Made by a program: the position numbers and the translations under genes
Assembly: GCA_947588735.1 (NCBI GenBank)
Contig: CANQAD010000018.1
Location: 1 to 34,565 of the forward strand
Direction of reading: 5' to 3'
Length of the DNA: 34,565 nucleotides
Origin: an uncultured Akkermansia sp.
Lineage (GTDB): Bacteria > Verrucomicrobiota > Verrucomicrobiia > Verrucomicrobiales > Akkermansiaceae
The notes under the pieces: model-generated
Seen by the model: only the letters and a program-made list of their open reading frames with translations
What the model was told of the DNA's origin: nothing
Databases searched by the model: none
In this document: one piece after another, positions 2,820 to 31,759 of the stretch
Position numbering within the stretch: the first letter of the stretch is position 1
Layout: each line of letters starts with the position of its first letter

Positions 2820-4346
2820 TTAAGCGCATTCCTTTTCGGGACCTGCAGCAATGGCACGCAGCATAATACAGAGTTCCGCAATGAGGAGCACCGTAAAGAG
2901 CACCGCAAATATCCAAAACGTCGTCTGCACCGAGCAAACAGAAAGCTTGGATACTGCTGCGCAGTTGGGTAGCAAATCTTGAATGGCCCACGGCTGACGT
3001 CCCACCTCTGCTACAATCCAACCGGCTTCGCTAGCCGCATACGCCAGCGGGATGCTCAGCAATATGATAAGCAGTACCGGTCTCCATGCCGCAATGCGCT
3101 TGCCGACCAGCAACAACCCTGCAAAAAGCGCCAGGAAATATCCACCCAAAATCACCATCACGCGGAAGGAATAAAACGTGGTAGCCACCGGCGGCACTAG
3201 CTCCTCAGGCGTCCTGAGGTAGCCGTAGCCAAAATAAGGGAAGTTTTCGCGCAGGATATCCACCTGTTCAGCATCCGCCCCCCGTTTGCAATCGCGTAAG
3301 GCATCAATTGCTTTGCGTCCGAATGCCATCTTTTGCGCAGCAGAGGGAGCTGTCAAGCCATCCTCGCCCACATACCCGCCTTCCAGCAAATTCTTAATGC
3401 CGGGCACGTAACCATCCGGCGTATTGGTCGCTAAGATGGAGAGTCCGCAGGGTATTTCAACCTTAAATAAGAAGGGGTCTTCTGCAGGATTGGCCCAGTC
3501 GATGCCGGGCTTGAGGAGCCCAATGCCCACAAGTCCAACACGATTACCACCTTCATAAAGCCCCTCCGCTGCGGCAAGTTTCATGGGCTGGTGGCGGGCA
3601 ATATCAACGCCGCTTTGATGACCTGTCGCCGCTGTGAGCAATGCTGCAAACAAGCCAAAAATGGAAGCCACGCGGATGCTGGCGTGTGCGAAATCCGTGT
3701 GTCTGCCGCGCAGCAAGTACCACGCACTCACGCCCACGACAAATACCGCACCAAGCACCCATGATGAAGTAACCGTGTGCAAGAATTTGGTGATCGCCAC
3801 AGGAGAGAGCGCCACGGCGGCAAAACTCACCATCTCGCTGCGCACGGTTTCGGGGTTAAACTCCATACCTGTCGGATACTGCATCCAGGAATTGGCAACG
3901 AGAATCCACCACGCCGAGAATGTGGCGCCCAGCACAGTCATCCACGTGGAGAGCAGGTGCGTCTTTTTCCCCAGCTTCTCCCAACCAAAAAACATGAGCG
4001 CGATAAAGGTTGCCTCCATGAAGAAAGCCACGATGCCTTCCACTGCCAGAGGCGCCCCGAAAATGTCACCCACAAACCAACTGTAGTTGCTCCAGTTCGT
4101 ACCGAACTCAAACTCGAGAATAATGCCGGTCGCCACGCCCATGGCAAAATTGATGCCAAAGAGTTTCATCCAAAAACGCGTGGTTGCCTTCCAAAATGCC
4201 CTGCCCGTGCGCACGTAGATCGCCTCCATGATGCACATGATCAGTCCCAGCCCAAGCGTGAGCGGCACGAATATCCAATGGTACATGGCCGTGAGCGCGA
4301 ATTGAGCGCGCGACCAGTCGATGAGAGAGGTATCAATGGGTTCCAT
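2820..4346 (-). CDS. cydA: Cytochrome bd quinol oxidase subunit I
   Basis: This 508-residue protein is the catalytic subunit carrying hemes b558, b595 and d. Visible landmarks are H23 in MYHWIFVPLT (the expected heme b595 ligand), the acidic pair E103 and E111 in the proton-path helix, H190 in FLHTVTSSW and M397 in SFRVMV (expected axial ligands of b558), and the GRQPW signature at 449-453. The quinol-binding loop lies roughly between residues 245 and 390, and length is close to the E. coli protein. The start codon lies 1 bp after the stop of the upstream DUF4492 gene, so translation is probably coupled. All key residues are present, so a working oxidase is expected. Confidence 0.97.
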   Translation of the reverse strand: MEPIDTSLIDWSRAQFALTAMYHWIFVPLTLGLGLIMCIMEAIYVRTGRAFWKATTRFWMKLFGINFAMGVATGIILEFEFGTNWSNYSWFVGDIFGAPLAVEGIVAFFMEATFIALMFFGWEKLGKKTHLLSTWMTVLGATFSAWWILVANSWMQYPTGMEFNPETVRSEMVSFAAVALSPVAITKFLHTVTSSWVLGAVFVVGVSAWYLLRGRHTDFAHASIRVASIFGLFAALLTAATGHQSGVDIARHQPMKLAAAEGLYEGGNRVGLVGIGLLKPGIDWANPAEDPFLFKVEIPCGLSILATNTPDGYVPGIKNLLEGGYVGEDGLTAPSAAQKMAFGRKAIDALRDCKRGADAEQVDILRENFPYFGYGYLRTPEELVPPVATTFYSFRVMVILGGYFLALFAGLLLVGKRIAAWRPVLLIILLSIPLAYAASEAGWIVAEVGRQPWAIQDLLPNCAAVSKLSVCSVQTTFWIFAVLFTVLLIAELCIMLRAIAAGPEKECA

Positions 4347-4347
4347 A

Positions 4348-4548
4348 TCAGTGTCGGTTCGTTAATTCCTCCGCCACGGCGCGGCTTTTTTGTTCGTCCG
4401 TACCTTGTAAATGAGGAGTGAAGAAAAACACACGCAACACCGCAAAGATGATCACTAACTTGAGCAAGATCACATACCAAAGCGTGCGTCCCAGCGTCAT
4501 GCGCCGGAAGCCATCTCGGTAAAATCTGTAGATGCCGCGTATGCCCAT
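4348..4548 (-). CDS. DUF4492 small membrane protein of the cyd operon
   Basis: This 66-residue protein carries the RFYRDGFRRMTLGRTLW segment followed by a hydrophobic helix (WYVILLKLVIIFAVLRVFFF), which fits DUF4492. Members of that family are known as a small gene directly upstream of cydA in Bacteroidetes and Campylobacterota. Function is unknown. Its fixed position suggests a role in assembly or stability of cytochrome bd, perhaps analogous to CydX. The frame extends upstream to a GTG at 4572, but I chose the ATG at 4548 because a -10-like TAGAAT (4557-4562) lies between the two, and GGGGAG directly precedes the ATG. Its stop is separated from cydA by one base. Confidence 0.8.
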   Translation of the reverse strand: MGIRGIYRFYRDGFRRMTLGRTLWYVILLKLVIIFAVLRVFFFTPHLQGTDEQKSRAVAEELTNRH

Positions 4549-4556
4549 CTCCCCGC

Positions 4557-4586
4557 ATTCTACCTTACTCACCTGCCATGAAGCAA
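4557..4586 (-). promoter_or_regulatory. Candidate promoter of the DUF4492-cydAB operon
   Basis: On the minus strand TTGCTT (4586-4581), 18 bp, and TAGAAT (4562-4557) form a sigma-70-type promoter, with the ATG only 8 bases after the -10 box. The core reads GGTAGAAT, as in two other operon promoters in this window. The message would have almost no leader. Confidence 0.5.
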
Positions 4587-4641
4587 GAAAAAAAGACCGG
4601 CAGCCCCACTCGAAGCTGCCGGTGGCGAGGCAAACTCGCGT
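4586..4641 (-). terminator. Double-hairpin intrinsic terminator of autotransporter 1
   Basis: Reading on the minus strand after the autotransporter stop there are two hairpins: GCGAG/CTCGC (4639-4625), then the perfect 8-bp stem CCGGCAGC/GCTGCCGG (4622-4597) followed by CTTTTTTTCT. This is a strong rho-independent terminator. Near-identical copies end the next two minus-strand genes at 7957-8010 and 11115-11164. Confidence 0.9.
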
Positions 4642-4669
4642 TTTTGTTTACTTACTGTAATGGTGAGCG

Positions 4670-7423
4670 TCAGAAGGCTATGCTGACCCCTCCGCCGACG
4701 CTCCACGAATTGGAACCGCTGCGCAAGTCTGCTTCACCGTTGACATAGAGCAGTGTGTCTCTGTCCACAGGTATGCTGACGCTCGCACCGAGCTGCGCCC
4801 CCACGACACCTGTTTCGGCCGAACGAACCCGTCCGCTGTAACCGCGGTCGCCGAGGAAGGAAACATCGGCCTCGCTGCGGCGGTCGCCCATATCTACTGC
4901 CACATTGGCTCGAATCTCCAGCACAGCAGCGCGACTGAATGTCTGTTCTCCACACTGAGACACAAAGCGAGCTCCGGCTGTCAACGTTGTCAACGTGGAT
5001 TTCTGTTCTCCCACGTGGAGTCCGGCATCACCGGCCCCATTTTCATTGTAGCCATCCATCTTTGTGGTAATGACCGAAAGACCGATCAGAGGCTGAAGAA
5101 GGCTGCTCTTCTGCTCATTAAGCGATATATCATAAGCCAATTCGTAGGCAGCTCCGAATCCGGCGCCGTTCGTACTCCCGCTGGTAGCGTAGTCGAGCAC
5201 ATAGGGCGCAACACCGCCACGGATAGTGCGGTTGAACTCAGCATCCGAGAAACCGGCGGACACGACGAAGCTGTGGTGGAAATTGCCGCTGCGATGGTGA
5301 GCGTAGAGGTTCACATAGTAGGTATCCAGATCTCCCTCGGCATGATCCGCCGCATCAACTTTCAAGTCGCCATAGGAAGCAACGAGGGAGAGACCGATGA
5401 TGGGACCTCCGCCTTGGAGATCTTTCTCCACGCCTACACCGGCTCCCCATGAGTTGTGTTCATATCCGGTTTCATCCCCGGATCGATCCAACTTGGCGCT
5501 GCCGCCCATACCTTCCACCCACACGCGCATCCCTTGGTCAGAATCGTCACGTGCCGCCGGTTCTTGACCGAGGCGAGCTGCCCGCGAAGCAGCGCGAGAG
5601 AGCTGCCCACGCATGGCATCCCGTTGTGCGGCTCCCAGCGCCGGCACAGCGCTGCCGACCACGGCAGACATGAGCCGCTGAGCCTCACTTCTGGCTGCGG
5701 CCGGATCAATGTTTGTTTCCTCGATGAGTCTTTCAGTGATCCCTGACTCAGCGATCATCGCAGCCATGGCTACAGCCGGTTGCCCTCCCTGCCCGATTTG
5801 AGCAAGTTCCGCGATGACACCTGCCACATTCCTCAGCTCTGAGGAGGTCGAATAATTCATGGCGTGGTAGAGCATGCCTGCGCCGGTCCGCGTGTTTTCG
5901 GAGATCGCAAGAGGCGCAAAAATGGTATCGGGATTGGGGTCATCCGGAATAGGCTCGATGGGGGCATCCGGCAGGTTGGCTCCATCGCCGGCTATCACGT
6001 AGAGTTGGACGACATTTCCATCCTTCTTCTCGACCATCAGATACGGATCGTCATATCCATCCACGGTGACCGTTACATTCTCCTTGAGCCATTTATTGAG
6101 CTCATCCTCGCTGTTCTCATCCGTATATTGTGATTGTGGACCCAGACGGAACCATGTCGTGTAGTCTTCACTGTACATATCCCCCGTCTGACTGTACATC
6201 ATAGACGTGAGAACGATGCCGTTTGACTGAATGAGAAGCTGTTTCAAATCCTTACCCGGATTCTCCGCGAATTCCACCCGAACGGCCAACTTGGTCGGGT
6301 CACCATGTCCCTCCCACGTGGTAGTCGTCAGATTAATTGCCGCAGAAGCCGTAATCTTCGCCCCCGTCTCTCCCTTCCCGTACTTCATCACCAATTTCGA
6401 CCGATCCTCCATACGGAAACTAAGCCCTCTTTGTACGAGAGGAGCATCAATACTTGAATCCCAGAAATTGCCAGCCTCAGGATCAGAGCCAATATCTTCG
6501 ACTGAGAAAGAAAACTTTCCAAGCAAAACCTTCGTGCCAGCTTCAATTGATAACGTATCTGTTATCTGAGGAACCGATGCATGCGAGAATGCGTCATATC
6601 CAATCGCGTATACATCTCCCAGATTTATCATTTGAAACTCGTTCTTGGAACCAGAAAGGACTACATTGCACCAACTCGTCGACAATTCCGTTTCCTTCGC
6701 AATAACATTGGTGAAAGTTTGTTCTGCCGGCAAAAAAAGCTCTTCGCGAGCTACACTCGCGACATCTATGTCACCCCGACCTTCTACAATCCCCTCGAAC
6801 TTCCCACCTGTTCCTATAATACTGATTTCACCGTCGTACCAATCTTCAACACTTCCTGCAAATCGAAGGGTCCCTTTTCCATTCAAAGAAGAGCACCACA
6901 CATTATCTCCTGCAATAAGCTCTCCTCCCTCTTCAATCGTCAAGCCAGGAGCAAAGGAACAGTCCCTTAGCGTAAGCTTCGCACCCTTTTGGACGACAAG
7001 TTCAGCACTATACTGATAGGCACTTGAGTCAACTCCACCCAACCTGGACTCCCCGGAGGCAAAGATAATTTTAGCGCCATTAAAAAGCGACAAACTGAGA
7101 TCATAGCTGGGAACCCACTCTCCTTCATAATAATCTCGCCAACCATCGTACGTGATCCCGCCTCTAATGGTCAGACTGGCTCCTTCTCCTACAGAGATAC
7201 TATGATGTTTGTTTTCGTCACCGTTCAGTCTTAAAGCCTTGCTCAGAGTAGCGTCTTCTCCTTCCACTTCGATACTAACCGACCCACTCGGAGTTCCTGA
7301 CAATTCCTCGAGACTTGAATTTTGGTCATCCACAGTCACAGTGACTGTACCAAATGCTGTTGTGCAGCATAGAAGAGCCGCCAGCAACGCGGCGCGCAAC
7401 GTATAAGGTAGGTGTAATTTCAT
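4670..7423 (-). CDS. Autotransporter (type Va secretion), copy 1
   Basis: A 917-residue outer-membrane autotransporter. A signal peptide beginning MKLHLPYTLRAALLAALLCC and ending near AFG leads to a passenger of about 430 residues with short repeated strand motifs (SLTIRGG, LVVQKGAKLTL, LTIEEGGEL) typical of a right-handed beta-helix. A proline-rich linker (DAPIEPIPDDPNPD) and an alpha-helical alanine-rich segment follow, then a C-terminal barrel of about 270 residues (autotransporter beta-domain) ending SVGGGVSIAF with the terminal phenylalanine used for barrel assembly. The frame is open to 7543, but the signal peptide fixes the start at 7423. There is no clear Shine-Dalgarno. Residues from WLKENVTVTV to the end match copy 2 exactly, also at DNA level, whereas the passenger has clearly diverged. 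An inverted-repeat-bounded switch lies 80-270 bp upstream. The passenger's target is unknown; adhesion is likely. Confidence 0.9.
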   Translation of the reverse strand: MKLHLPYTLRAALLAALLCCTTAFGTVTVTVDDQNSSLEELSGTPSGSVSIEVEGEDATLSKALRLNGDENKHHSISVGEGASLTIRGGITYDGWRDYYEGEWVPSYDLSLSLFNGAKIIFASGESRLGGVDSSAYQYSAELVVQKGAKLTLRDCSFAPGLTIEEGGELIAGDNVWCSSLNGKGTLRFAGSVEDWYDGEISIIGTGGKFEGIVEGRGDIDVASVAREELFLPAEQTFTNVIAKETELSTSWCNVVLSGSKNEFQMINLGDVYAIGYDAFSHASVPQITDTLSIEAGTKVLLGKFSFSVEDIGSDPEAGNFWDSSIDAPLVQRGLSFRMEDRSKLVMKYGKGETGAKITASAAINLTTTTWEGHGDPTKLAVRVEFAENPGKDLKQLLIQSNGIVLTSMMYSQTGDMYSEDYTTWFRLGPQSQYTDENSEDELNKWLKENVTVTVDGYDDPYLMVEKKDGNVVQLYVIAGDGANLPDAPIEPIPDDPNPDTIFAPLAISENTRTGAGMLYHAMNYSTSSELRNVAGVIAELAQIGQGGQPAVAMAAMIAESGITERLIEETNIDPAAARSEAQRLMSAVVGSAVPALGAAQRDAMRGQLSRAASRAARLGQEPAARDDSDQGMRVWVEGMGGSAKLDRSGDETGYEHNSWGAGVGVEKDLQGGGPIIGLSLVASYGDLKVDAADHAEGDLDTYYVNLYAHHRSGNFHHSFVVSAGFSDAEFNRTIRGGVAPYVLDYATSGSTNGAGFGAAYELAYDISLNEQKSSLLQPLIGLSVITTKMDGYNENGAGDAGLHVGEQKSTLTTLTAGARFVSQCGEQTFSRAAVLEIRANVAVDMGDRRSEADVSFLGDRGYSGRVRSAETGVVGAQLGASVSIPVDRDTLLYVNGEADLRSGSNSWSVGGGVSIAF

Positions 7424-7504
7424 AGGAATTATTTTATAGAGTCTGAATTTTCCCTTAGCCCTCACCATATACACGTAAGAGCTTTGGTACAGGAGCGAGT
7501 GTAT

Positions 7505-7522
7505 CGCATTTCGAATGAGATG
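7505..7522 (+). repeat. Left inverted repeat of switch 1
   Basis: CGCATTTCGAATGAGATG; pairs with the reverse complement of 7670-7687. The TTTCGAA core is shared by both ends and would be the strand-exchange region. Confidence 0.7.
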
Positions 7523-7669
7523 TACAGAAAAAAGTGTTATCATTTCTCGTTTTTAAGTAAGTTAACGTTCTGAGGCATCTTCGGATTTCGAAAGAAGTAA
7601 AGACGAGAGAGAGGAGGGATTGTTTCTTCAAAGCATTTTTGGTAAATATAAAACGAATACCCGTGTGCT

Positions 7670-7687
7670 CATCGTTTTCGAAAAGAG
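7670..7687 (-). repeat. Right inverted repeat of switch 1
   Basis: Minus-strand CTCTTTTCGAAAACGATG; 13 of 18 positions match the left repeat. Centre-to-centre distance of the TTCGAA cores is 167 bp, the same as in switch 2. Confidence 0.7.
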
Positions 7688-7703
7688 ATGAGCAAGCTCC
7701 CAT

Positions 7704-7956: not shown

Positions 7957-8010
7957 CATAAAAAACCGGCAGCCCCACTCGAAGCTGCCGGTGGCGAGGC
8001 AAACTCGCGT
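7957..8010 (-). terminator. Double-hairpin intrinsic terminator of autotransporter 2
   Basis: Same structure as the terminator at 4586-4641: the stem CCGGCAGC/GCTGCCGG lies at 7966-7991 and a T-run is read from 7965 downwards. The identity with the other copy begins at the base before the hairpin (7965 against 4596), so the terminator is part of the duplicated or converted tract. Confidence 0.9.
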
Positions 8011-8038
8011 TTTTGTTTACTTACTGTAATGGTGAGCG

Positions 8039-10765
8039 TCAGAAGGCTATGCTGACCCCTCCGCCGACGCTCCACGAATTGGAACCGCTGCGCAAGTCTG
8101 CTTCACCGTTGACATAGAGCAGTGTGTCTCTGTCCACAGGTATGCTGACGCTCGCACCGAGCTGCGCCCCCACGACACCTGTTTCGGCCGAACGAACCCG
8201 TCCGCTGTAACCGCGGTCGCCGAGGAAGGAAACATCGGCCTCGCTGCGGCGGTCGCCCATATCTACTGCCACATTGGCTCGAATCTCCAGCACAGCAGCG
8301 CGACTGAATGTCTGTTCTCCACACTGAGACACAAAGCGAGCTCCGGCTGTCAACGTTGTCAACGTGGATTTCTGTTCTCCCACGTGGAGTCCGGCATCAC
8401 CGGCCCCATTTTCATTGTAGCCATCCATCTTTGTGGTAATGACCGAAAGACCGATCAGAGGCTGAAGAAGGCTGCTCTTCTGCTCATTAAGCGATATATC
8501 ATAAGCCAATTCGTAGGCAGCTCCGAATCCGGCGCCGTTCGTACTCCCGCTGGTAGCGTAGTCGAGCACATAGGGCGCAACACCGCCACGGATAGTGCGG
8601 TTGAACTCAGCATCCGAGAAACCGGCGGACACGACGAAGCTGTGGTGGAAATTGCCGCTGCGATGGTGAGCGTAGAGGTTCACATAGTAGGTATCCAGAT
8701 CTCCCTCGGCATGATCCGCCGCATCAACTTTCAAGTCGCCATAGGAAGCAACGAGGGAGAGACCGATGATGGGACCTCCGCCTTGGAGATCTTTCTCCAC
8801 GCCTACACCGGCTCCCCATGAGTTGTGTTCATATCCGGTTTCATCCCCGGATCGATCCAACTTGGCGCTGCCGCCCATACCTTCCACCCACACGCGCATC
8901 CCTTGGTCAGAATCGTCACGTGCCGCCGGTTCTTGACCGAGGCGAGCTGCCCGCGAAGCAGCGCGAGAGAGCTGCCCACGCATGGCATCCCGTTGTGCGG
9001 CTCCCAGCGCCGGCACAGCGCTGCCGACCACGGCAGACATGAGCCGCTGAGCCTCACTTCTGGCTGCGGCCGGATCAATGTTTGTTTCCTCGATGAGTCT
9101 TTCAGTGATCCCTGACTCAGCGATCATCGCAGCCATGGCTACAGCCGGTTGCCCTCCCTGCCCGATTTGAGCAAGTTCCGCGATGACACCTGCCACATTC
9201 CTCAGCTCTGAGGAGGTCGAATAATTCATGGCGTGGTAGAGCATGCCTGCGCCGGTCCGCGTGTTTTCGGAGATCGCAAGAGGCGCAAAAATGGTATCGG
9301 GATTGGGGTCATCCGGAATAGGCTCGATGGGGGCATCCGGCAGGTTGGCTCCATCGCCGGCTATCACGTAGAGTTGGACGACATTTCCATCCTTCTTCTC
9401 GACCATCAGATACGGATCGTCATATCCATCCACGGTGACCGTTACATTCTCCTTGAGCCATCCGTTGAGCTTCGACTCGCTGTCCACATCCGTATATTGT
9501 TCGGTCACCGAAAACGTGCGATCTCCGTCATCATGCTCCCCGTATTCAATGGAAGTAAGAACAATGCCGTTCGCCTGGATGAGGAGTTGCTTCAAATCCT
9601 TACCATGGTTCTCTGCGAATTCCACCCGAACGGTCAGCTTGGTTGGGTTTGATGTGTCTTCCTCCCACGTTGTCGTCTTCAACACAATTGCCCCGGACGC
9701 CGTGATTTTGGCTCCCATCTCACCCTTGCCATACTTCACCACCAGCGTCGACCGATCTTCCATGTCAAAGCTGAGTCCCCTCTGCCTGACAGGTTCATAT
9801 ATCCGCGAATCAAACTTTACGGAATCTGATTCCTCGTCATAATGCCAAGTGGGGGCATCGAGAAGTTTTCCGAGAGAAACTTTCGTCCCCTCCTCCATGG
9901 TCAACGTGCTTCTGGTTTGCAATTTGTCCGGATTGTCCCACGTATCAAAAGAAATGTCATGAACGCTTCCTAACTGCAGACCTTTGAACTCGTCCTTTGC
10001 GCCGGCGAGAGCGACATTGCCGCAGGCCACGGACAGGTTGGTCCCTTGAGATGTGACGTCGGTGAAAGTTTGATGGCTCGTGTCCAGACTTGGTTTCGAA
10101 GGGTTGAAAAGACTACCAACTTCAATAAATTCTTCGCCCTCTATCCTCCCGCTGAAATTCCCACCGGCGCCATCAATGAAAAAGCTACTAAAACCATAAA
10201 CCGGATTCTTTCGAAGGGTCAAAGTTCCACTCCCGTTCAGACTTGTACAGTTCAAGTCGGCCACGGACATTTCTCCGCCTTTCTCAATCGTTAAGATGCC
10301 AACTCGTGAAGTAATATCATCCGAAATTGTGACCTTTGCTCCGTTCTGCACGACAATCTCGCCTGGCCCGCCCCACACAGTACCCAGTTTCGATTCTCCT
10401 GCTGCAAAGATGATCTTTCCTCCCGGCTTGTCTTGATTACCCAATTCTTTCTCAAACAAATGGAGTATTCTCCCCCCACCCAGGTAGTTACCGTTGTACG
10501 TGAGTCCTCCCATGATGGTCAGGCTGTGTCCTTTTTCCACAATAATGTAATGGTCCGCCCCACTATCCAGTGTTAAAGCATGGCCCAAGATGGCGTCTTC
10601 CCCCTCCACCACAATACTGACGGACCCACTCGGAGCTCCTGTCAATTTTTCAAGACTTGAATCTTGGTCATTTACAGTCACAGTGACTGTACCAAATGCC
10701 ATTGTGCAGCACAAGAGCGCCGCCAGCACCGCATTGCGTAAAATATAGGGTAATCGAAGTTTCAT
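8039..10765 (-). CDS. Autotransporter (type Va secretion), copy 2
   Basis: A 908-residue paralogue of the autotransporter at 4670-7423. It has a signal peptide starting MKLRLPYILRNAVLAALLCC, a beta-helix-like passenger (SLTIMGGLTY, IVVQNGAKVTI, LTIEKGGEM), the same DAPIEPIPDDPNPD linker, the alanine-rich helical segment and the C-terminal barrel ending SVGGGVSIAF. The open frame extends up to 10942 through the switch region, but those 59 residues precede the signal peptide and are not expected to be translated; the start is 10765. There is no Shine-Dalgarno. The last 474 residues match copy 1 exactly, with identical DNA, while the passengers differ by many substitutions and small indels. This is the pattern left by recent gene conversion of the barrel. 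Confidence 0.9.
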   Translation of the reverse strand: MKLRLPYILRNAVLAALLCCTMAFGTVTVTVNDQDSSLEKLTGAPSGSVSIVVEGEDAILGHALTLDSGADHYIIVEKGHSLTIMGGLTYNGNYLGGGRILHLFEKELGNQDKPGGKIIFAAGESKLGTVWGGPGEIVVQNGAKVTISDDITSRVGILTIEKGGEMSVADLNCTSLNGSGTLTLRKNPVYGFSSFFIDGAGGNFSGRIEGEEFIEVGSLFNPSKPSLDTSHQTFTDVTSQGTNLSVACGNVALAGAKDEFKGLQLGSVHDISFDTWDNPDKLQTRSTLTMEEGTKVSLGKLLDAPTWHYDEESDSVKFDSRIYEPVRQRGLSFDMEDRSTLVVKYGKGEMGAKITASGAIVLKTTTWEEDTSNPTKLTVRVEFAENHGKDLKQLLIQANGIVLTSIEYGEHDDGDRTFSVTEQYTDVDSESKLNGWLKENVTVTVDGYDDPYLMVEKKDGNVVQLYVIAGDGANLPDAPIEPIPDDPNPDTIFAPLAISENTRTGAGMLYHAMNYSTSSELRNVAGVIAELAQIGQGGQPAVAMAAMIAESGITERLIEETNIDPAAARSEAQRLMSAVVGSAVPALGAAQRDAMRGQLSRAASRAARLGQEPAARDDSDQGMRVWVEGMGGSAKLDRSGDETGYEHNSWGAGVGVEKDLQGGGPIIGLSLVASYGDLKVDAADHAEGDLDTYYVNLYAHHRSGNFHHSFVVSAGFSDAEFNRTIRGGVAPYVLDYATSGSTNGAGFGAAYELAYDISLNEQKSSLLQPLIGLSVITTKMDGYNENGAGDAGLHVGEQKSTLTTLTAGARFVSQCGEQTFSRAAVLEIRANVAVDMGDRRSEADVSFLGDRGYSGRVRSAETGVVGAQLGASVSIPVDRDTLLYVNGEADLRSGSNSWSVGGGVSIAF

Positions 10766-10842
10766 AGAAATAATTGTGAATGATTTTTTACCTCTGCACA
10801 CATCGTTTGTCCGTGAGCGCTTCGGTACAAGGACGAGTATAT

Positions 10843-10860
10843 CGAATTTTAAAAACGATG
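10843..10860 (+). repeat. Left inverted repeat of switch 2
   Basis: CGAATTTTAAAAACGATG; pairs with the reverse complement of 11008-11025 at 13 of 18 positions, including the whole TTTTAAAA core. Confidence 0.7.
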
Positions 10861-11007
10861 AGCACACGGATATTCGTTTTATATTCACAAAAAATGCTTT
10901 GAAAAACCAGTCCCTCTTCTCTCTCGTCTTTATCCTTTTCAAAATCTCGGGATGCCTCAGAACGCTAACCTACTTAAAAACGAGAAATGGTAACATTTTT
11001 TCCTGTA

Positions 11008-11025
11008 CATCTCTTTTAAAAAGAG
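11008..11025 (-). repeat. Right inverted repeat of switch 2
   Basis: Minus-strand CTCTTTTTAAAAGAGATG. Its core agrees with the left repeat of the same locus, but not with the TTTCGAA cores of switch 1, as expected if recombination takes place within each locus. Confidence 0.7.
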
Positions 11026-11114
11026 ATAAGCAAGTGTCCATTTCCGGCAGTCTCAGGATGCAAAGAGCTTACGAGTGAGAGACTTATACAACGGCGTCTC
11101 TTACGCTTGGCGGT

Positions 11115-11164
11115 GAAAAACCGGCAGCCCCACTCGGAGCTGCCGGTAGCGAGGCAAACTCGCG
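11115..11164 (-). terminator. Double-hairpin intrinsic terminator of glnN
   Basis: GCGAG/CTCGC followed by CCGGCAGC/GCTGCCGG (11146-11121) and a short T-run on the minus strand. It differs from the two autotransporter terminators by only a couple of bases, so the same terminator module closes three consecutive genes. Confidence 0.85.
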
Positions 11165-30685: not shown

Positions 30686-31759
30686 TTAACCTGGCACACT
30701 ATGTTCGTTGATTTGCTTGACGCAGAAGTCATACATATCGCTTGTCGTGAGGGCTTCCTTGTACCAATCCACCGTCTTGTGCACCGCCTCCTGCAGCCCC
30801 CATCTCGCTTCCCACCGCAACATCGTGTACGCCTTGGTCACATCCAGATTCAGCAGCGTGTTCTCATGCATAGCGTTCGGGTCGCTGGCATCCACCACGC
30901 TCCCCTTGCCGTAGTACTCCACGAGAGTTTGCACCACTTCCATCACTGTCTTGTTCGCCTTGAGTTGAGGACCGAAGTTGAAGCAGGTCGCGTACTTCAC
31001 CGGGTCTTCCATGAGCCGCTGACCCACGCGCAGGTAGCCGGAGAGAGGCTCCAGCACGTGCTCCCAAGGGCGCGTGGCTTTCGGGTTGCGCACCTGAATC
31101 GGCTTGCCCTCCTCAATGCTGCGGATGCAGTCCGGGATGATGCGGTTGGCCGACCAATCGCCGCCGCCGATGACATTACCCGCACGTACGGATGCCACGG
31201 CTTTTCCGTGTTCCGCATAGCGAGCAGGGTTGAAGTAGGATTGCCGGTAGGCATGAATCATGAGTTCTGCGCATCCCTTGGAGGCCGAATAAGGGTCTTC
31301 TCCGCCCATGCGATCCGTCTCCTTGTAACCCCAGATCTGTTCGCGATTCTCATAGCATTTGTCTGAGGTGATCATGACGGCTGTCCGCAAACAATCATGC
31401 TTCCGCACGCACTCCAGCACATTCAGACTCCCCATGATGTTCGTCTCGAAAGTGGTTTTGGGCTGCTCGTAGGAGGTGCGAACGAGGGCTTGCGCCGCCA
31501 GGTGAAAGACAATTTCAGGCCGGTACTTCTCGATGGCTGCACTGAGGGTGTCCAAATCCCGCACATCCCCGCGCAGGTCAGCGTGCAGATGTTCATACAA
31601 GTGCGAAGCGCAGTAATTCCCCTTCTTCGAGTACGGTTCCAGCGCATAGCCCACCACTTTCGCTCCCATCATCGTGAGCCAGATCGCCAGCCACGAGCCC
31701 TTAAAGCCGGTGTGTCCCGTCACCAACACCGTCTTGCCTTTGTATGCGTCGTTATACAT
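30686..31759 (-). CDS. rfbG: CDP-glucose 4,6-dehydratase
   Basis: A 357-residue extended SDR enzyme that converts CDP-glucose to CDP-4-keto-6-deoxyglucose. It has the NAD-binding GHTGFKG at 15-21, a VFHLAAQALVR block, the TSDKCYEN segment typical of RfbG, the catalytic YSASK motif, VRAGNVIGGGDWS, and RPWEHVLEPLSGYL. Its start overlaps the stop of the upstream SDR gene by 8 bp. With rfbF two genes upstream it forms a complete route from glucose-1-phosphate to the 4-keto-6-deoxy intermediate. The base composition is higher in G+C than that of the genes that follow. Confidence 0.95.
   Translation of the reverse strand: MYNDAYKGKTVLVTGHTGFKGSWLAIWLTMMGAKVVGYALEPYSKKGNYCASHLYEHLHADLRGDVRDLDTLSAAIEKYRPEIVFHLAAQALVRTSYEQPKTTFETNIMGSLNVLECVRKHDCLRTAVMITSDKCYENREQIWGYKETDRMGGEDPYSASKGCAELMIHAYRQSYFNPARYAEHGKAVASVRAGNVIGGGDWSANRIIPDCIRSIEEGKPIQVRNPKATRPWEHVLEPLSGYLRVGQRLMEDPVKYATCFNFGPQLKANKTVMEVVQTLVEYYGKGSVVDASDPNAMHENTLLNLDVTKAYTMLRWEARWGLQEAVHKTVDWYKEALTTSDMYDFCVKQINEHSVPG

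Follow-up and report, generated by a model that had tools for sequence, protein, structure and literature searches.

A probable inversion switch upstream of an Akkermansia autotransporter gene, one of at least 25 arrays with a common recombination site

The 34,565-nucleotide stretch analyzed here (the window) constitutes contig C18 of an Akkermansia MAG of 2.2 Mb in 110 contigs (labeled G000; 89% complete). It encodes two autotransporters in tandem on the minus strand: autotransporter 1 (4670–7423, starting MKLHLPYTLRAA; Pfam PF03797, E = 6e-37) and autotransporter 2 (8039–10765, starting MKLRLPYILRNA; PF03797, E = 7e-37). Both have the C-terminal PF03797 beta-barrel of type V autotransporters, and 75–80 bp upstream of each ATG lies a putative switch. 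The 168-bp switch 2 comprises a gene-proximal recombination site at 10841–10859 (ATCGAATTTTAAAAACGAT), which is 75 bp away from the ATG of autotransporter 2, a predicted invertible segment at 10860–11008, and a gene-distal site at 11009–11027 (ATCTCTTTTAAAAAGAGAT), which is a perfect ATCTCTTT-TAA-AAAGAGAT. The corresponding parts of switch 1 are found at 7503–7521 (gene-proximal site, ATCGCATTTCGAATGAGAT), 7522–7670 (segment, based on its blastn alignment with switch 2), and 7671–7689 (gene-distal site, ATCGTTTTCGAAAAGAGAT). Sequence comparisons outside the window covered the stretches around sites and recombinases.

An exact direct repeat of 1,497 bp (4596–6092 and 7965–9461) spans the C-terminal halves of both autotransporter genes, and much of the two passengers shares ~30–50% identity. 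The repeat suggests recent gene conversion, duplication, passenger exchange, or an assembly effect, and so long an exact stretch in a MAG calls for caution over the assembly. Recombination between the two copies would remove one autotransporter gene; the genome of a sister species, G016, has one. A terminator-like hairpin (ACCGGCAGC...GCTGCCGGT) occurs in three copies (4596–4623, 7965–7992, and 11120–11147), at the 3′ ends of autotransporters 1 and 2 and of a glutamine synthetase gene. The sole Akkermansia match to the glutamine synthetase (“Akkermansia sp. RGIG5191,” 85%) contained no switch sites.

Taken alone, the switch 2 site pair is modest evidence, because its arms match each other weakly (~13 of 19 positions). 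At up to three mismatches the window contains four site matches, against 0.14 expected. The cores are TTTTAAAA at 10847 and 11014 in switch 2 and TTCGAA at 7510 and 7677 in switch 1, and the core-to-core distance of 167 bp given for both loci in the sequence-only reading came out the same when recomputed. With blastn, the insides of the two switches align on opposite strands (151 of 177 identities, 85%, no gaps, E = 8e-57) and form the longest inverted repeat in the window, whereas their flanks align on the same strand and the breakpoints fall at the site positions. This bears out two earlier proposals: that each autotransporter has upstream of it an invertible element bounded by a pair of site-specific recombination sites, and that the two window switches are in opposite orientations. 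In G016, the one autotransporter at the position corresponding to the window pair has a gene flank that matches the flank of switch 2 at 98% identity and an inside (90% identical) oriented as in switch 2 and opposite to switch 1. Insides in both orientations between collinear flanks were found among the window paralogues, and also among orthologues and paralogues at other loci.

Genome-wide, the site is a 19-bp near-palindrome, ATCTCTTT-NNN-AAAGAGAT, whose arms flank a 3-nt core. A pattern with a 2-nt center (ATCTCTTTTNNAAAAGAGAT) gave nearly no matches, and the real layout is 8-3-8. The search for further repeat copies proposed earlier was productive: G000 contains 67 copies with up to two mismatches, vs. 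none for a reversed-pattern control, and these include at least 25 inverted pairs, or arrays. In 25 of 25 arrays the 3-nt cores of the outer sites are identical as inverted copies (permutation mean 7.1, maximum 17; 100,000 permutations), so that the matching of cores within a locus, first noticed at the two window switches, extends to the whole set. The 19-bp sites and their identical crossover cores also agree with the definition of invertons by end repeats of 10–40 nt. Six core types recur across the 25 arrays, and cores are therefore not unique to a locus. The inverted inside, the 67 sites against none, and the 25 matched cores together place the evidence for switch 2 far above chance. Four G000 contigs have an end only a few bases from a switch site (C28 and C56 at their starts, C34 and C103 at their ends), the outcome to be expected had the assembly been broken by mixed orientations or by repeated sites.

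Two-site switches are mostly 165–169 bp long, and 13 arrays have a third, middle site, with a spacing of ~157 plus 127–143 bp. Helical phase within a tight synapse may explain why these spacings are conserved. In 6 of the 13 three-site arrays the middle core is mismatched, and there the outer pair alone could recombine. Inversions were visible at several loci outside the window. Between an array on contig C2 of G000 and its G016 orthologue, the flanks are collinear (94% and 98%) and both inner segments (85% and 94%) are inverted; between the G000 paralogues on C8 and C60, the flanks are 87% identical and collinear, and a 278-bp inside, 98.6% identical, is inverted. A partial flip was found between C1 and C57 of G016, where the 157-bp A segment (95.6%) is inverted and the B segment (94%) is collinear. 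The middle site was therefore used for inversion in the past, and the idea that it never is was dropped after this comparison. Of 24 three-site array–gene pairs in G000 and G016, 11 have the long arm on the gene-proximal side and 13 on the distal side (binomial p = 0.84), a split consistent with free flipping of the whole array. Our literature search for nested or three-repeat promoter invertons found none. The long arm of three-site arrays (L142, L145, L259, and others) also carries a conserved TTTTTTGTGTCATACTT box, possibly a promoter or regulator site, which reads in the direction from the outer to the middle site in 19 of the 20 arrays bearing an exact TGTCATAC.

Most switch sites lie directly upstream of autotransporters that start with MKLHLP. 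In G000, 14 genes with an MKLHLP-like start pattern, as well as autotransporter 2, are 32–107 bp from an array, and the number in G016 is similar. At two G016 loci, L275 (contig C53) and L278 (contig C2), a single array sits between divergent MKLHLP autotransporters, an arrangement that would permit either-or expression. Other switches adjoin a glycosyltransferase gene, a nucleotidyltransferase-like gene, and an Eco57I-type restriction-modification gene. The last of these (L157, G000 contig C47, 3301–5343) has a two-site switch at 3020–3203, 98 bp upstream, and from this position restriction may be phase-variable as well.

We consider it very probable that the feature upstream of autotransporter 2 is an inversion switch (inverton) of a putatively phase-variable autotransporter and one member of the set of at least 25 arrays with a common site. 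In the mechanism we propose, a chromosomal tyrosine recombinase would bind the arms and exchange strands in the core, and the resulting inversion would point an outward promoter within the segment either at the gene, whose start is ~75 bp past the site, or away from it. Every switch would then give the cell surface one more on/off state, independent of the others; for two independently flipping switches the sequence-only reading put the outcome at four surface states. The third site located 127–143 bp further in many sister arrays would permit whole-array as well as partial flips. Comparisons of sister loci show turnover of switches, and individual cells therefore probably carry different mixes of surface proteins, though the inversions seen may have been rare events in evolution. 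Which orientation is ON is another matter. The window copy upstream of autotransporter 2 had been called as perhaps ON from a TATAAA-like box reading toward the gene; that call found no support, since this AT-rich position gives TATATT, which scores better as a −10 box, when read on the opposite strand. Candidate −10 boxes in other arrays are equally ambiguous in strand, and ON/OFF assignment by −10 scoring was rejected because the box reads on both strands.

The sequence-only reading had also suggested a search for a tyrosine or serine recombinase, and of these the tyrosine type was found. For serine recombinases (PF00239) there were no matches in G000 (89% complete), compared with matches in 10 of 14 control genomes. 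The 13 tyrosine-recombinase (PF00589) matches in G000 are XerC/D, four phage- or island-like integrases, and a six-paralogue family. One gene, at 31042–32040 of contig C2, encodes a 333-aa protein (PF00589, E = 4e-15) whose catalytic R, K, R, H, and Y align with those of XerC/D; its family has Asp in place of the first His of HxxR. It is found between two genes that we take, from general knowledge of the sequences, to be dprA and pheT in G000 and G016, and it adjoins dprA in G020 and G025. A phage origin was rejected, as phage relatives are just ~30% identical and the gene has these neighbors. The gene is single-copy per genome, and 24 of 40 congeners have one close orthologue.

This gene and the sites co-occur among congeners. 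The seven congeners with a 69–86% identical copy are those with ATCTCTTT sites (5–55 per genome), and congeners with a 49–58% identical orthologue include all that have at least two shifted ATCTCATT-type sites (2–22) but lack the first type. At least two sites of either type were found in 14 of 24 congeners with the gene vs. none of 16 without it (Fisher p = 8e-5), a correlation that phylogeny confounds: the genomes are related and hence not independent, and part of the co-occurrence can stem from shared ancestry. Ten genomes with the gene have fewer than two sites under the patterns used. By this phylogenetic co-occurrence, the dprA–pheT tyrosine recombinase is the leading candidate for the enzyme, and we favor it with some reserve.

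A less likely, though still serious, alternative concerns only the enzyme and is compatible with the switch itself: inversion could be carried out by the L042-type or L038-type paralogues or by XerC/XerD. The presence in G000 of six paralogues of the family plus XerC/D leaves room for this, as does the position of the dprA–pheT gene, which adjoins no switch. Against it, the dprA–pheT gene is the sole family member seen across all genomes with at least two ATCTC-type sites (ATCTC(T/A)TT), with the L042- and L038-type paralogues judged from partial data, and Xer genes are expected in site-free genomes too. Another paralogue, the L036 type (C86), was rejected as the enzyme, since it has no close orthologue in the site-rich genomes G020, G025, and G034 (33, 31, and 15 sites).

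Whichever enzyme acts, the segment might be a frozen relic that inverted on one or a few occasions as the genes duplicated, with sites at the window locus now inactive. Such decay would suit three of the four window sites, the left one of switch 2 and the two of switch 1, which differ from the consensus at 2–4 bases. Yet the cores are still exactly matched within each locus despite the drift around them, the whole arrangement is kept in the G016 orthologue, and the same site type elsewhere shows inversions with flanks and insides 87–98% identical, which points to recent flipping; we regard the relic as improbable. Least plausible is that the palindromes are regulator operators or terminator-like repeats and the inversions products of repeat-mediated homologous recombination: near-palindromic sites also suit dimeric repressors, but an operator needs no matching of a 3-nt center that varies between loci and is identical, as inverted copies, within all 25, the breakpoints lie at the sites in every case examined, and efficient RecA-driven inversion needs repeats longer than 19 bp.

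Taking the locus as an inversion switch, its nearest counterparts are in the same genus. The original Akkermansia motif paper reportedly appeared in Science in 2019. Published A. muciniphila invertons have the inverted-repeat motif CGGATT..AATCCG (inverton group 138, PMC11892184; the cps1 inverton, PMC13343947), and one of them is near two autotransporters, with inverted repeats ~174 bp apart and an orientation that shifts over mouse generations (PMC11892184). The CGGATT invertons resemble those described here in their short palindromic inverted repeats, in a variable 3-nt center matched within each locus, and in their location upstream of surface genes, with pairs ~166 bp or ~304–317 bp apart. 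They differ in their arms, which are CGGATT there and ATCTCTTT here; the sites here are ATCTCTTTNNNAAAGAGAT, and G000 has just two CGGATT-type matches. Six congeners without the candidate gene have 16–88 CGGATTNNNAATCCG sites (56–88 in four of them), vs. 0–9 in congeners with it, and among congeners the ATCTCTTT and CGGATT site types exclude each other. None of the five long CGGATT switches examined has a middle site. The window locus, very probably a switch with the same workings as the CGGATT invertons, belongs to a different site type in the genus, one that has three-site arrays in addition.

More distant systems share single features. The Mpi promoters of Bacteroides fragilis are alike in that a single recombinase is thought to flip many unlinked surface-gene promoters, but Mpi is a serine recombinase, a type with no PF00239 match in G000. 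The fimS switch of Escherichia coli also relies on tyrosine recombinases (FimB and FimE) to flip a short segment with a promoter, upstream of a surface structure; it is one 314-bp locus beside its recombinases, whereas the arrays here number at least 25 and are unlinked, with their candidate gene at a distance. R64 Rci shufflons likewise have multiple sites per array, giving more than two arrangements, but exchange coding segments, whereas the arrays here are intergenic and upstream of the start codon.

The widest reading of these comparisons is that, in this clade, a single tyrosine recombinase on the chromosome controls at least 25 switches as a surface-wide regulon, many of them three-site and with up to four states per gene, and that between species the site it recognizes has drifted (ATCTCTTT, ATCTCATT) along with the recombinase itself, with other Akkermansia using an unrelated site; we hold the case for and against this to be evenly balanced. 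The clade lends itself to a natural test: a single recombinase orthologue occurs alongside two site types related to each other, and other congeners have another type that excludes them. Should this be confirmed, the pairing of recombinase and site would be open to direct testing, and phase variation may extend to most of the large autotransporters that a gut commensal carries, some under switches with more than two states.

We found no paper that names the enzyme flipping the A. muciniphila invertons. Among the recombinase copies examined in genomes with CGGATT-type sites, none is beside dprA/pheT. Two such congeners have recombinases of the same family with CGGATTNNNAATCCG sites directly upstream (L313 in G004, 5707–6916; L319 in G028, 4422–5660); the two are 50% identical to each other and are candidate enzymes for the published CGGATTNNNAATCCG motif.
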